A stretch of DNA of 23,798 nucleotides from a virus. The first letter of the stretch is position 1. Each line of letters opens with the position of its first letter. Positions 4,632 through 19,281 of this stretch are shown in pieces. Below the pieces are notes generated by a model. The model was not told the DNA's origin and ran no database searches. It saw nothing but the letters and a program-made list of their open reading frames with translations. The stretch lies in the IMG/VR virus record IMGVR_UViG_3300010401_000080, positions 1 to 23,798 of that record; one strand, given 5' to 3'. The position numbers were made by a program, and so were the translations under genes.

Positions 4632-4897
4632 ATCCTTGTAAATTTACTGATTAAAGTTGCAATAACGGAACAAATTGCGGCGTAAAATATAAAAAGCGGT
4701 TCTTGGTTAATTGCAAAATAAGCCAATCCTGACCAAAAACCCAAACATAATGGGCAAGAAAATGGTTTTAATTGTGCTTTTGGCTTTATAAAATGATTAA
4801 AAATCAATTCATGCCTTATCCTTTGTACTAACCCCGAACCCTCTGCAAAAAGCCAAGCGAAACATGCTATGCCGATTATTTCAAGTATTGTTTTCAT
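4628..4897 (-). CDS. Small membrane protein with CPLC motif
   Basis: A longer frame begins at 4960, but ATG at 4897 overlaps the preceding TGA as ATGA, so I take that start and an 89-residue product. There are two or three hydrophobic segments: an N-terminal one (about residues 4-18), one after the Cys motif (GFWSGLAYFA) and one near the end (FIFYAAICSVIATLI). The motif FSCPLCLGFWSG sits at the edge of a membrane segment, recalling DUF1360-like small membrane proteins that carry CPxCxxFW. Its place after a glycosyltransferase gene suggests a link to envelope modification, but this is inference. ATG at 4903 is an alternative start. Confidence 0.65.
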   Translation of the reverse strand: MKTILEIIGIACFAWLFAEGSGLVQRIRHELIFNHFIKPKAQLKPFSCPLCLGFWSGLAYFAINQEPLFIFYAAICSVIATLISKFTRI

Positions 4898-5769
4898 ATC
4901 CATTTCCCGTTTAAAAATTGATAAACATTTTCCGCATTGCCCCGGTAAATCACGCTCCAAAGCCCTCCGTTTCCGCTATGGGTAACAAGATATTTGCATT
5001 TTGCCATAATCAAAACTGCCGCAAAAAACTTTTTGCCATATTCCGCACGTTCTGACATTGGAAGCTCCAGGAAGTTTGCGGAATCCTTTTTTTTCATTGC
5101 CGGCAGCTCGTGGAACGTGAACGAATTTGGGAAATTATCCTTAAAAGTATTCATGAACTCCGCCTCGTCTGGCATAACAAGGAACCTGATGCCAGGGTTC
5201 TTTTTTTCAATTTTAGTTGCCTGGGAAATAAAATCGTAATAATTGGCACATTGCGTCTCCCGGTTCTTGTCATTGCCCCTGTAAAACACGGCACATGTAT
5301 TCTCAAAATCAATATTGTTGCCTTCTGTGAGATATAATTCCCAACTGTTAACCCCTTCGCTTGGTGTGAAATATTTTTTGATAAATGGCTTCATGCTATT
5401 AAAGTCCAGTTGCTTATAATCTGAATATTGAGGGTCTATGTTTTCCTGAAAAGTGATTGCCACAGGGTTCATTGCTATTTGATAATCATCATTTTCAGTA
5501 TAAGGCAATTCCCCAATTTCAAAACTCTTTTCATCAAAATAAAAAGGTACCAGATCACTCACAGTGTCAGATTTGTAAAAGGCATATTGAATTGACCTAT
5601 CCACAATATCAGGCAACCTGCCGTGATTCTTGTAATAAATCATAATATCCTGTAATGCAATAGAGCTATTTGAAAAGAACCCTGCATTGTGGATTACCAC
5701 TAATTTTGTTTCATCTATCATTGGCGAAAAAGGCGGGTTTGCCCCACTGTTTATTATTTCAAATTCCAT
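4894..5769 (-). CDS. Putative glycosyltransferase, fucosyltransferase-like GT-B type
   Basis: The protein has 291 residues. The second half carries AVFYRGNDKNRE (160-171), which resembles the sugar-nucleotide-binding loop HxRRGD of fucosyltransferases. It then has a hydrophobic strand FLVMPDEAEF (196-205) and, near the end, a helix plus AKCKYLVTHSGNGGLWSV (256-273), like the AxxCxxxIxSxSTFSWW region of GT11 and GT68 relatives. The likely role is transfer of a sugar from a nucleotide donor. The start abuts the stop of a 45-codon gene. It is the last glycosyltransferase-like gene of the run. The exact family is uncertain because the motifs are degenerate. Confidence 0.55.
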   Translation of the reverse strand: MEFEIINSGANPPFSPMIDETKLVVIHNAGFFSNSSIALQDIMIYYKNHGRLPDIVDRSIQYAFYKSDTVSDLVPFYFDEKSFEIGELPYTENDDYQIAMNPVAITFQENIDPQYSDYKQLDFNSMKPFIKKYFTPSEGVNSWELYLTEGNNIDFENTCAVFYRGNDKNRETQCANYYDFISQATKIEKKNPGIRFLVMPDEAEFMNTFKDNFPNSFTFHELPAMKKKDSANFLELPMSERAEYGKKFFAAVLIMAKCKYLVTHSGNGGLWSVIYRGNAENVYQFLNGKWI

Positions 5770-11567: not shown

Positions 11568-12005
11568 TCAAAATATCTCCATTGCTTTTTGTACACGTTC
11601 TTTGAAATTTTTGTCAATTTGCATAAAACCTGCAATTTTGTTTATTCCTGAAATCACTGATGTATGGTCACGCTTTCCAAAATATATCGCAATATAACTT
11701 TTACTGTACTTTTTACCATCGCTCCATAAAATATAAAACAATATATGCCTATGCTCTGTAATCTCACGTTTGCGGCTTTTGCCCCTCAAATTTGTTATCG
11801 CAACACCAAAGGTATCGCAATATAGTTTTACATAATCGTCTATTTTTAGGATTTCCATATTGTGTTTTATCAATCTTTTACTACTTTCGTTCAAATTGTT
11901 TATCCGTCTTTCAAAAAGTTCATCAAAGCGGGAATTGAAATATATCTCAAATATTTCATTAAACAATCCTTTAGCTTCATCTCTTGTTAGGCAATCGAGT
12001 TGCAT
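11568..12005 (-). CDS. Protein with DnaA domain IV-type DNA-binding end
   Basis: The start at ATG 12005 overlaps the preceding TAA as TAATG, giving 145 residues. The C-terminal half (about 58-125) reads like DnaA domain IV: VKLYCDTFGVAITNLRGKSRKREITEHRHI (two parts) followed by the signature FGKRDHTSVISGINKI (109-124), close to GGRDHTTVLHA of DnaA. The AAA+ ATPase part of DnaA is absent; the first 55 residues are a charged helical region. It probably binds specific DNA sites, perhaps at the phage origin, or competes with host DnaA. The gene lies two genes downstream of the replication initiator. The domain call is strong, the role is inferred. Confidence 0.85.
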   Translation of the reverse strand: MQLDCLTRDEAKGLFNEIFEIYFNSRFDELFERRINNLNESSKRLIKHNMEILKIDDYVKLYCDTFGVAITNLRGKSRKREITEHRHILFYILWSDGKKYSKSYIAIYFGKRDHTSVISGINKIAGFMQIDKNFKERVQKAMEIF

Positions 12006-12649
12006 TATATTTCTTCTTTTGGTGGCAGGTTGTCTTTTTTCCACTGAAGGAAAGCCGGGTCTTGTAAACGCTCCCTTAATGAAAGTTTCTCTTTAGTCTC
12101 AAAATGTACCTTTGGTTTTTCGGGGGCATTTCTCATTTTCTCGTAGGCGTCTAAAATTTCCTGCTCTGTTTTGGTTGGGATTTCGTTCACCTCTGCAAAA
12201 TTCCTTTGTTCACAAATATAAAGCCGCTCTTGGCAATACTTTTCAAGCCATTCAAAAAATATAGCTTCATCAAGGCGGTTATAAGATTTGCCGAAATCTC
12301 CCCTTTTAGCCTGGTTCACGAAATAAGCTATCTCATCGAGTTTTATTCCCCAGTACTCATTGATTATCCTAAAAGTTATCCGGGTGACTTGGCGGGCATC
12401 CAAATTCATTGAGACGTTCAAACTATTGGAAAGGTCAACAACCCATGCGTAAATCGTGGCGGCCAAAGGTTCTATTCCCGATTCACGCTTATATGCTGAA
12501 ATTTGAAAACCGTCCATAGCCATTTCAATAGTCATTTGCCCCCGGTCAATCAATTCTAATATTTGGTTAGCGGCTATATCCACCTTTAGCAAGTCCTTCT
12601 GATAGGGCCTCAATTGCATCTTGCTCTGTGATTCGTTTATTTTGTCCAT
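12005..12649 (-). CDS. Conserved-looking replication-block protein of unknown function
   Basis: The likely start is ATG 12649, preceded by the A-rich leader TAAAAACA typical of these hosts; starts at 12670 and 12619 are possible. All three lie inside the end of the initiator gene, giving an unusually long overlap (83 bases for the preferred start). The 214-residue product is mostly helical. It contains RITFRIINEYWGIKLDEIAYF and NQAKRGDFGKSYNRLDEAIFFEWL, which read like a conserved fold, and a charged, flexible last third. No ATPase or nuclease motif was seen. It may be a helicase-loader-like partner of the initiator, but that is only inferred from position. Confidence 0.7.
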   Translation of the reverse strand: MDKINESQSKMQLRPYQKDLLKVDIAANQILELIDRGQMTIEMAMDGFQISAYKRESGIEPLAATIYAWVVDLSNSLNVSMNLDARQVTRITFRIINEYWGIKLDEIAYFVNQAKRGDFGKSYNRLDEAIFFEWLEKYCQERLYICEQRNFAEVNEIPTKTEQEILDAYEKMRNAPEKPKVHFETKEKLSLRERLQDPAFLQWKKDNLPPKEEI

Positions 12650-13361
12650 TGTTTTTATTTTTAAGTTCAAAAATTCCTTGATAGTTGTTTGCGATTGATT
12701 GGTGCAAAATCTGGATTGCCTCGTATTCGTTCCCTTTTGAAAGTTCTGACAATTTTTTTAGCGCGGCCTGCAAACCAATTTTTTTATATTTTGCCAATTT
12801 TTTTTCTTTTCTGTAATCTTCCCAAATCTGCCAATTTTTTTTAAAGTTTTCAGAAGTGAAAGGCCAAATTATTTCTTTTAAAAAATCGGTCTCTTTATTT
12901 ACGTTAGTAAATAAGTTGTTATCATTATTTTCTTTGTTCCCTTTATTACTTTGTTTAGTAGTTGTACTATCTGTTGTACCTTTAGATGTATAGTCAGTTG
13001 TACTATCTGTTGTATTATCAGTTGTACTAAGGTCTTGGTATTGATTGTAGTTAGTTATTGATATTAAGGTAATTAGCTTAGATTTCTGTTGTACTATTTG
13101 TTGTTCTTTTTCGAGCATGTTTAAGAAGCTATTTACCTTTATTCTTGACCACTTCCATCTTTCGCATAAAGTTTCCTGTGAATAAGCAAGTTGACCCCTG
13201 CCAATAATAACCACGTTGCCCCGGATAAGCATTTTAGATTCCTTGTATTTTGCCAGGAATAACATATCTATCCAAGCCTCAAATTTTGATTTAACCTTAC
13301 TATCTTTCCATAGATAGTTGTCCTGTATATTCCTTGAAATACTAATCCAACCTTTAGCCAT
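12567..13361 (-). CDS. Phage replication initiator with N-terminal winged helix
   Basis: A frame open from a GTG at 13439 exists, but the conserved part begins MAKGWISISRNI at ATG 13361, giving 264 residues. Residues 1-105 resemble the winged-helix DNA-binding domain of phage replisome organisers (YLWKDSKVKSKFEAWIDML, RGQLAYSQETLCERWKW). A low-complexity linker (110-150) carries four-residue repeats of the STTD kind. The C-terminal part (165-235) has W-x2-W-x2-Y and a Lys-rich helix, ending SIANNYQGIF, a pattern common in phage replication proteins that contact the helicase or its loader. The gene holds 12-bp repeats that may be its own binding sites. Confidence 0.8.
   Translation of the reverse strand: MAKGWISISRNIQDNYLWKDSKVKSKFEAWIDMLFLAKYKESKMLIRGNVVIIGRGQLAYSQETLCERWKWSRIKVNSFLNMLEKEQQIVQQKSKLITLISITNYNQYQDLSTTDNTTDSTTDYTSKGTTDSTTTKQSNKGNKENNDNNLFTNVNKETDFLKEIIWPFTSENFKKNWQIWEDYRKEKKLAKYKKIGLQAALKKLSELSKGNEYEAIQILHQSIANNYQGIFELKNKNNGQNKRITEQDAIEALSEGLAKGGYSR
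12961..13032. repeat. Six 12-bp direct repeats in the initiator gene, candidate origin iterons
   Basis: Six adjacent 12-bp units start at 12961, 12973, 12985, 12997, 13009 and 13021. Five begin GTTGTA and the third begins GATGTA; the best-shared unit is GTTGTACTATCT. A further GTTGTACTATTT-like copy lies at 13088-13099. The units encode a tetrapeptide repeat in the linker of the initiator. About 100 to 200 bases further along transcription the DNA turns very AT- and T-rich (12780-12900). Lambda O has this very layout: iterons within the initiator gene next to an AT-rich unwinding region. A purely protein-level linker repeat is the alternative. Confidence 0.6.
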
Positions 13362-13502
13362 TGGAAAAAAGTCTAAGTCACTTAACCCGGTCGAAACTGG
13401 CATTTTGCGAAGGTAAATCGCAGGGTTTCCCCCAAACACGGGCTAAGTGCTTATTATTTTAAAAATATAGTGTGTGTAATTGTAAACGCCAGTTTCATTT
13501 TA

Positions 13503-15302: not shown

Positions 15303-15310
15303 ATTGTTTA

Positions 15311-15318
15311 CAAATTTA
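15311..15318 (-). promoter_or_regulatory. -7 element for the leftward operon
   Basis: TAAATTTG on the minus strand lies about nine bases before the ATG at 15302, so the transcript would be nearly leaderless. The nearest upstream TTG is 25 bases away, slightly longer than the usual 17 to 23. The position at the divergent boundary supports a promoter here. Confidence 0.4.
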
Positions 15319-15442
15319 TACTATATTATTTGAATAAACCTAACAAAATGTAAAATATTTTTTTACTATAATAAAAAGGTAGGTGCTCCAGTTCTGCCGG
15401 GCTTTATTTGCATTTAAAGGCACATTATATATAGGTGTAAAA

Positions 15443-15506
15443 TTATTTTTAAAAATAAATGAAATAAAAAGTACCACGTATTAATAAATGTAGTAAATTT
15501 GTACTT
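15443..15506 (+). promoter_or_regulatory. Rightward promoter region with candidate operator repeats
   Basis: TAAATTTG at 15494-15501 matches the -7 form and lies about 40 bases before the first rightward gene; no TTG is seen at the usual distance. The element is flanked by the inverted pair AAGTAC (15469-15474) and GTACTT (15501-15506). Further upstream is a perfect 16-bp palindrome, TTATTTTTAAAAATAA (15443-15458). Such sites could bind a regulator that controls both divergent operons. The 237-base gap 15303-15539 holds no convincing gene. Confidence 0.4.
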
Positions 15507-15539
15507 GTAATATTTAATAACAACTAAAAACTTTGAATT

Positions 15540-17866: not shown

Positions 17867-18670
17867 ATGGAAAATCAAACTGAATTGGCTTTAGTGCCTG
17901 AAATTTATGACGAACGCAAGTTGTCGGTATCAATATTTGATACCCCAGAAGCATTCGAGCAAGGGCAGCGTTACGCCAAAATGCTAATTATTAGCTCCCT
18001 TATTCCTAAGAACTATGTAAATAATATTCCAAATACCATGATTGCATTGGAATATGCTCACAGGCTTAGGATTTCTCCATTAATGGTAATGCAAAATTTG
18101 AATGTGATAAACGGAACGCCTTCGTGGGGTGCAAGTTTCTTGATAGGTATGATTAATTCGAGCGGTAAATATACCGATGATTTACAGTTTGAAATGACTG
18201 GCAACAAAGGGCAATCTGATAGGGGCTGTTACGCATGGGCTGAAAACAAAAAAGGTAAAATAATAGAAGCCCCTGAATTCACCTTCCAAATGGCAATTTC
18301 AACGGGGCTGGTCGATAAAACAGGCAGTAAATGGAAGGTAACACCCGAACTGATGTTGCGCTACCGCGCGGCCTCTATGTTTAGCCGTTTGCATTGCCCT
18401 GAAATAACTCTTGGTTTTTACACAACAGAGGAACTTTTGGATGAAAAGGATAATTTCAAAAAGATAAGCATTGAGGTTGAACCCATCGACCCGGCAGAAT
18501 TGGAAGCCGTTTCAAATGCAATGTCACAATGTGAAAATGTGGATGCACTGAAAAAATACTTTGCCGGGCTTGACGCAAAACTGCAAAAAGATGCAACGGT
18601 TATTACAATAAAAGACAGGATAAAAAACACTTTGGCGGCTAAGGCTATGGTTAAAAATGAGGGCATATGA
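17867..18670 (+). CDS. recT: RecT-family single-strand annealing protein
   Basis: This 267-residue protein should anneal complementary single strands during phage recombination. Motifs typical of the family are IALEYAHRLRISPLMVMQNL (59-78) with INGTPSWGASF after it, and KWKVTPELMLRYRAASMF (155-172) followed by LGFYTTEEL. Its start directly follows the stop of the coiled-coil gene, and its TGA overlaps the start of the exonuclease gene. Together with that exonuclease it forms the usual two-component recombination system that repairs double-strand breaks by end resection and annealing. Confidence 0.93.
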   Translation: MENQTELALVPEIYDERKLSVSIFDTPEAFEQGQRYAKMLIISSLIPKNYVNNIPNTMIALEYAHRLRISPLMVMQNLNVINGTPSWGASFLIGMINSSGKYTDDLQFEMTGNKGQSDRGCYAWAENKKGKIIEAPEFTFQMAISTGLVDKTGSKWKVTPELMLRYRAASMFSRLHCPEITLGFYTTEELLDEKDNFKKISIEVEPIDPAELEAVSNAMSQCENVDALKKYFAGLDAKLQKDATVITIKDRIKNTLAAKAMVKNEGI

Positions 18671-19281
18671 TAATATACAATATGCCACAAAGAACGCCTG
18701 AATGGATTGAAGTCAGGCGTGGGAAAATAACAGGCACCAGGTTAGCCGATATTTTCAAAACTGATAACCTTACCTTAGCAGATAAATTAATAGCCGAAAT
18801 GGGAAGCGACGAGGATTCACCTTCATTTACAAATGCAGCTATGCAGAGAGGCATAGATATGGAACCAGTCGCAAAAGCATTGTACCAAAGCCAAACCAGT
18901 TACGATATATTGGAATGTGGTTTTATCGAGCATGAAATACATTCTTTTATTGGCATGAGCCCAGACGGCCTTATTATTCAAAATGACAAATACGTTGGTG
19001 GCCTTGAAATAAAATGCCCTGATACGTCAAAACATGTACAATATATCCGACATAATAAGCTGCCAACTGAATACCGTTATCAGGTTTTGAGCATGTTTTT
19101 AATAAACCCTGACTGTCATTTTGTAGATTTCATTAGCTTTGATGATAGGTTCAAACCGAAACCAATATGGTATAATACCACTTTTAGAACTGATATTGCA
19201 GATGAACTTATAAAAATAGAAGCAGAAGTTTTAAAATTTTGGGATAAGGTTTTGAAACTGCAAAAAGATATAATTTTTTAA
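18667..19281 (+). CDS. YqaJ / lambda-exonuclease-like 5'-3' exonuclease
   Basis: The 204-residue protein has the PD-(D/E)XK exonuclease signature in order: RRGKITGTRLADIF (17-30), MQRGIDMEPVA with Glu66 (59-69), SPDGLI with Asp100, GGLEIKCP with Glu114 and Lys116, and YRYQVLSMFL with Gln139. Such enzymes resect duplex ends to yield a strand for RecT. The start overlaps the recT stop as ATGA, and a second Met at residue 6 is an alternative. The length is typical. Confidence 0.93.
   Translation: MIIYNMPQRTPEWIEVRRGKITGTRLADIFKTDNLTLADKLIAEMGSDEDSPSFTNAAMQRGIDMEPVAKALYQSQTSYDILECGFIEHEIHSFIGMSPDGLIIQNDKYVGGLEIKCPDTSKHVQYIRHNKLPTEYRYQVLSMFLINPDCHFVDFISFDDRFKPKPIWYNTTFRTDIADELIKIEAEVLKFWDKVLKLQKDIIF

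Follow-up and report, generated by a model that had tools for sequence, protein, structure and literature searches.

The window analysed here, a stretch of 23,798 nucleotides from an uncultivated phage, carries a minus-strand replication initiator gene whose product belongs with SPP1 G38P and DnaD-like phage initiators (Table 1). Its open reading frame can be extended 5' to a GTG at 13439, and homologues begin at the Met of MAKGWISISR. Homology of the winged-helix domain is evident from phrog profiles (phrog_2514, E 7e-22; also phrog_186 and the O-like phrog_678, E 4.7e-9) and from tblastn matches in phages of Staphylococcus, Vibrio and Enterococcus and in SPP1 gene 38, the last with 37.8% identity across ORF residues 28-135. 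Pfam returned zero matches for the protein, and a sequence search against solved structures gave no significant relative. An AlphaFold2 model (27 sequences) predicts a confident winged helix, with helix-turn-helix (HTH) helices at residues 62-69 and 73-85 and wing strands at 89-93 and 98-102. Model confidence is low across residues 116-169, a stretch that holds most of the array-coded linker and is probably disordered. The nearest PDB folds, 4pt7 and 4pql, are weak matches (E 0.013-0.033) to RepA_N-type plasmid initiator domains.

The end of the initiator gene is overlapped by a gene that lacks Pfam and NCBIfam matches, resembles only phrog_35728 (function unknown) and has zero matches in the fetched family loci; its position hints at a helicase loader. 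Among the proteins scanned, which cover part of the ORFs of this fragment record, none was recognised as a helicase or helicase loader. One gene downstream of the initiator gene lies a gene for a small DnaA domain IV protein, with a similar one in another locus (L185); a phage protein reduced to the domain that binds DnaA boxes might influence initiation in the host. DnaA boxes themselves were considered and rejected, with 109 matches at up to two mismatches against 97 expected and none exact among the matches listed. Elsewhere the window holds a phage recombination pair, and the contig end encodes a pentapeptide-repeat protein (GAYLTGADL) through a 15-bp tandem repeat.

Inside the initiator gene, about 330 bp in and away from its promoter, lies an array of 12-bp iterons, which Tandem Repeats Finder places at 12960-13029 with the consensus AGTTGTACTATC. 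Allowing at most one mismatch, its word ATAGTACAACWG occurs five times on the minus strand of the window, all at 12959-13097; chance would give 0.22 copies in the window, and 100 shuffles gave at most two. The first-pass annotation had described six contiguous units with a seventh, outlying copy. The repeat is real, yet its fourth register is decayed; the outlying copy is present, but as one of a pair spaced 12 bp apart that precedes the first array copy by 67 and 79 bp. The AT-rich tract that the annotation had placed beyond the array is also there, and the AT-richest 40-mer of the gene lies further on, at 12778-12817. A possible second repeat, where the gene encodes the C-terminal domain, was not seen in the 16 relatives checked.

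Table 1. Features of the initiator locus and of the rest of the window
Feature	Coordinates	Strand	Basis or content
Replication initiator gene, 264 aa, SPP1 G38P/DnaD-like	12567-13361	minus	phrog profiles, tblastn, sequence
Winged-helix domain coding part, residues 1-108	13038-13361	minus	AlphaFold2 pLDDT 89-97 over residues 11-110; HTH and beta wing
Predicted recognition helix, residues 73-85 (R73 codon 13143-13145)	13107-13145	minus	base-3 covariation, AlphaFold2
Outlying iteron pair, codes for wing EQQIVQQK	13086-13109	minus	AAAGAACAACAA (13098-13109) and ATAGTACAACAG (13086-13097)
Spacer, outlying pair to array	13031-13085	minus	sequence
Iteron array, six 12-bp registers of ATAGTACAACWG, codes for (S/N)TTD linker	12959-13030	minus	Tandem Repeats Finder, word count
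Array register	13019-13030	minus	TTAGTACAACTG
Array register	13007-13018	minus	ATAATACAACAG
Array register	12995-13006	minus	ATAGTACAACTG
Array register, fourth, decayed	12983-12994	minus	GACTATACATCT
Array register	12971-12982	minus	AAGGTACAACAG
Array register	12959-12970	minus	ATAGTACAACTA
AT-rich stretch coding for Asn/Lys-rich linker, candidate DNA unwinding element	12880-12958	minus	76.5% AT (12880-12960)
Possible second repeat, C-terminal domain coding part	12746-12842	minus	AAAAAAATTG(G) x4 in three reading frames; post hoc p 0.0007
Gene overlapping initiator gene end	12005-12670	minus	phrog_35728 only
DnaA domain IV small protein	11568-12044	minus	Bac_DnaA_C E 1e-13; TIGR00362 C-terminal part only
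AT-richest place of window, between divergent gene blocks	15303-15539		up to 88% AT per 60 bp
RecT-like annealing protein and adjacent YqaJ-type exonuclease	17867-19281	plus	
15-bp tandem repeat at contig end	2-95		6.3 copies, 93% match

It had been claimed that the copies agree beyond what the encoded tetrapeptide needs, and synonymous-codon shuffling within the gene, with protein and codon usage kept fixed, bears this out to differing degrees. For the array alone, in frame, 14 near-repeat pairs stand against a null mean of 3.9, which reaches only p=0.017. When the outlying copy is included, out-of-frame near-repeats exceed the shuffles at p=0.001, and across the stretch from the wing to the Asn linker at p=0.0003. 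The common word is read as Ser-Thr-Thr-Asp in the array and, in another frame, as Ile-Val-Gln-Gln in the outlying copy. The window gene by itself provides modest evidence at the DNA level.

Homologous initiator genes were sampled from more than 140 loci of viral and genome contigs (best 80 loci per scan) plus four phage records, of which 106 non-redundant genes could be subjected to the shuffling test. Out-of-frame near-repeats exceeded the synonymous shuffles at p<0.01 in 79 of these 106, with 27 falling short. The same threshold was passed by 1 of 104 controls drawn from other ORFs (for each locus, the 70 codons of another ORF that most resemble a linker), and within the same genes by 1 of 100 C-terminal and 4 of 105 N-terminal parts. 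Iterons are spaced about 11 bp apart in most genes, so that successive copies pass through frames 2-1-0-2-1-0, and mostly 12 bp apart in the window gene and those closest to it, of which several come from Bacteroidales assemblies; 11-12 bp is about one helical turn. One DNA word encodes different peptides in two or three frames in each of L028, L046, L035 and L099. For example, GTACAACA is translated as VQQ, YN and TT in L028, ACGAACATCAA as EHQ, NIK and TSN in L099, and GGACACCAAA in three frames in L035.

The outlying copies recur across the family as well. In 63 of 127 genes the gene's own array word appears exactly in the wing-coding segment, compared with 2, 1 and 4 genes for equal-sized control segments. 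Among 32 genes below 60% identity, exact matches in the wing were found for 59% of own words versus 6% of other genes' words (permutation p 0.0005). Wing-to-array distances cluster at 45, 56, 67-69, 78-79 and 90 bp, that is, in 11-bp steps to which the 67 and 79 bp of the window belong. AT content across the family peaks just beyond the array, where the AT-richest 40-mer falls in 62% of genes (about 15% expected by length). Compared at the sequence level, the family argues strongly for conservation as DNA. Homologues with a Thr/Asp-rich linker but no DNA repeats had been proposed as the outcome that would count against an origin; the reverse was found, the DNA repeats being kept while the protein rotates through frames.

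SPP1 served as a positive control, using its IMG/VR copy (positions 201-345 of locus L378 correspond to SPP1 4.8-4.95 kb). SPP1 theta replication begins at oriL, inside gene 38 (PMC5615212, PMC6316719). G38P is reported to bind direct repeats there and at oriR with nanomolar affinity, beside an AT-rich unwinding element, and oriL theta replication to have been reconstituted in vitro (PMC6316719). On the forward strand, the gene-38 word occurs elsewhere in SPP1 in one place only, at 4893-4909 with two mismatches; the sole further match outside the gene 38 array, on the reverse strand, is no more than a control pattern yields. The place at 4893-4909 is intergenic, within the ORF 7-8 interval (4.8-4.9 kb) and 12.96 kb from oriL round the circle. 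We identify it with oriR by position, since published work puts oriR in an intergenic region some 13 kbp away from oriL (PMC6316719). This non-coding place contains a group of three copies at 12-bp spacing, then, after a step of 57 bp, three more spaced by 12 and 11 bp, and finally AACAACAATGATAAACAATGAGAACAATAAAAATATATT, which is nearly the same as the DNA encoding NNNDNNENND in gene 38. The order of outlying copies, gap, array and AT-rich AACAACAATGATAA is the same as in the coding origins, and the gene 38 version of the AACAACAATGATAA stretch is translated as poly-Asn. Since the layout is shared by non-coding DNA, both the repeat linker and the poly-Asn linker in these proteins appear to be translated origin DNA.

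The array, the outlying pair and the AT-rich stretch therefore very probably constitute a phage replication origin of the SPP1 oriL kind, a reading that draws on sequence comparison and on analogy with SPP1. The locus combines a winged-helix domain homologous to the G38P/DnaD-like initiators, direct repeats conserved as DNA rather than as protein, and an adjoining AT-rich stretch that follows the family trend. Nearly all comparisons support the earlier proposal of an iteron-like candidate origin inside the initiator gene; from them we infer that, in this phage, the initiator binds, the DNA melts, helicase is recruited and the origin fires. As in SPP1, where phased iterons are bound, AT-rich DNA opens and helicase is loaded, the most likely mechanism would have the winged helix of the initiator bind one iteron per helical turn through the recognition helix that starts at R73, occupying both the array and the phase-matched outlying pair. 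The resulting nucleoprotein complex would open the AT-rich stretch, and the disordered linker or C-terminal domain would bring in the helicase-loading machinery.

Another location for the main origin, with the array as an accessory in the manner of the two SPP1 origins, would be the AT-rich divergent intergenic region at about 15.3-15.5 kb, and we regard this as unlikely. Gene orientation and GC skew do flip there, cumulative skew is lowest at 14.5-15.5 kb and AT content is the highest of the window at 15.31-15.50 kb, but the region has no copy of ATAGTACAACWG with at most one mismatch, skew tracks gene direction in the window, and divergent promoters explain the AT-richness. The region is a probable promoter or regulatory region and an alternative origin candidate. 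Cumulative GC skew, suggested by the first-pass annotation as a check, proved unhelpful and was discarded as origin evidence: its minimum, at about 14.5-15 kb and so some 2 kb away from the array, falls where gene orientation changes, at the divergent junction that is also the AT-richest place of the window.

We likewise give little weight to the idea that the initiator binds these iterons for autoregulation, as an operator or roadblock, or for incompatibility, and not to start replication. The pointers to binding are indirect and would not imply firing, and the skew minimum lies elsewhere; however, the array sits well within the gene instead of at the promoter, the AT-rich stretch comes after the array across the family, and in SPP1 theta replication begins at oriL, within gene 38 (PMC5615212, PMC6316719). 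That the repeats are a functionless by-product of a repetitive Ser/Thr/Asp linker and biased codons is scarcely credible: every array copy of the window is in one frame encoding (S/N)TTD, and codon bias alone yields some similarity, but the outlying copy carries the same 12-13 bp in another frame, most homologues repeat out of frame beyond synonymous shuffling, L028 and its like encode their own word as different peptides, and the SPP1 layout exists in non-coding DNA too. Across the family, sequence comparison has already refuted this idea.

One protein position follows the iteron sequence, an indirect pointer to specific binding of the repeats by the initiator. The iteron register was fixed by A-C-N-N-C-A with base 3 masked (positions 3 and 4 masked), a choice made after a first alignment had been seen, and two phased ACNNCA words are present in only about half of the genes. 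That first circular alignment over all 11 positions, in which R73 was not top at the strictest identity cut (n=37), was replaced because its registers were noisy. In the register so fixed, base 3 is linked more strongly to residue 73 (window numbering) than to any other protein position, whichever identity threshold is applied. Among 22 genes below 60% identity, R goes with A in 10 of 12, N with G in 5 of 7 and K with C in 3 of 3 (z 6.2; next protein position 2.7), and the Mantel-Haenszel odds ratio stratified by identity is 6.9. For held-out genes, less than 85% identical among themselves and to the training genes, predictions fixed beforehand were correct for base 3 in 17 of 19 cases (10 expected, p 0.0003). 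In a tree for which residue 73 had been masked, all five independent pairs differing in residue 73 also differ in base 3, three of them with both bases as predicted, whereas base 3 differs in 6 of 28 pairs sharing residue 73. With only five independent switches, shared ancestry is less likely as an explanation but may still contribute. The window, with R73 (the first residue of the predicted recognition helix) and ACAACA, agrees with the rule.

On balance, we favour the view that in G38P/DnaD-like phage initiators the first recognition-helix residue specifies one iteron base (R: ACANCA, N: ACGNCA, K: ACCNCA), such that origin and compatibility group would be readable from the gene sequence alone, and that origin DNA dictates the linker and wing peptides of its own binding protein. 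Neither this covariation nor the phased wing copy was found in the open papers searched, whose coverage stops short of the early SPP1 literature (for example Missich et al. 1997). The analysis assigns a candidate origin to an uncultivated phage, one whose terminase most resembles those of Bacteroides phages, and offers a recipe for phages with such an initiator, namely 11-12 bp out-of-frame linker repeats plus a phased wing copy. The residue-base correlation provides a testable rule of origin specificity, relevant to initiator/origin pairing and to prophage, plasmid or satellite compatibility. Shaping by origin DNA would also offer a reason for the Thr/Gln/Asn-rich low-complexity linkers of these initiators.

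Among known systems, SPP1 is the closest. Its winged-helix initiator is homologous, its linker-coding DNA likewise carries direct repeats spaced by about one helical turn, and it too has outlying copies, 57-69 bp upstream, and an AT-rich AACAATGATAA stretch downstream. Its word is MGACAC, spaced 11 bp with rotating frames, whereas the window uses TACAAC, spaced 12 bp with the array in one frame. SPP1 further differs in having a second origin, oriR, with none seen in the window fragment, and in being a Bacillus phage, the terminase of the window being closest to Bacteroides phages. In the SPP1 replication module the genes for the G39P helicase loader and the G40P DnaB-type helicase adjoin; in the window, a fragment, the downstream gene is of no known family.

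The gene O of lambda likewise contains iterons and an AT-rich tract inside an initiator gene, and its iterons are longer, at 18-20 bp, and partly palindromic. The analogy with lambda O drawn in the first-pass annotation is reasonable, helped by the match to phrog_678 ('replication initiation O-like'), but SPP1 G38P/oriL is closer. From lambda O the window differs in its 12-bp iteron register and in that its protein matches no Pfam domain, the lambda O type included.

RepA_N initiators such as pSK41 RepA, and PLE RepA, share a winged-helix N-terminal domain of DnaD-like fold, and 4pt7/4pql are the top fold matches. The window protein resembles them in fold only (best E 0.013) and, having no Pfam match, lacks the RepA_N domain (PF06970). 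In pSK41 the Rep boxes lie mid-rep, and the linker coded by the origin is dispensable as protein (PMC5703833). Most iterons of RepA_N systems form semi-palindromes around a poly-A tract (PMC7145576), in contrast to the short direct repeats of the window, and PLE iterons are non-coding where those of the window are coding. The pPR9 hybrid initiator joins a phage-like N-terminal domain and origin to a pSK41-type C-terminal domain (PMC5703833); there too, the N-terminal DNA-binding domain and in-gene origin move as one module, although pPR9 is a plasmid and its HTH is of pfam13730. In-gene origins are already known from SPP1 gene 38, pSK41 rep and lambda O; the window adds a new member, with in-frame repeats spaced 12 bp apart, from a phage that by its terminase stands nearest to Bacteroides phages.
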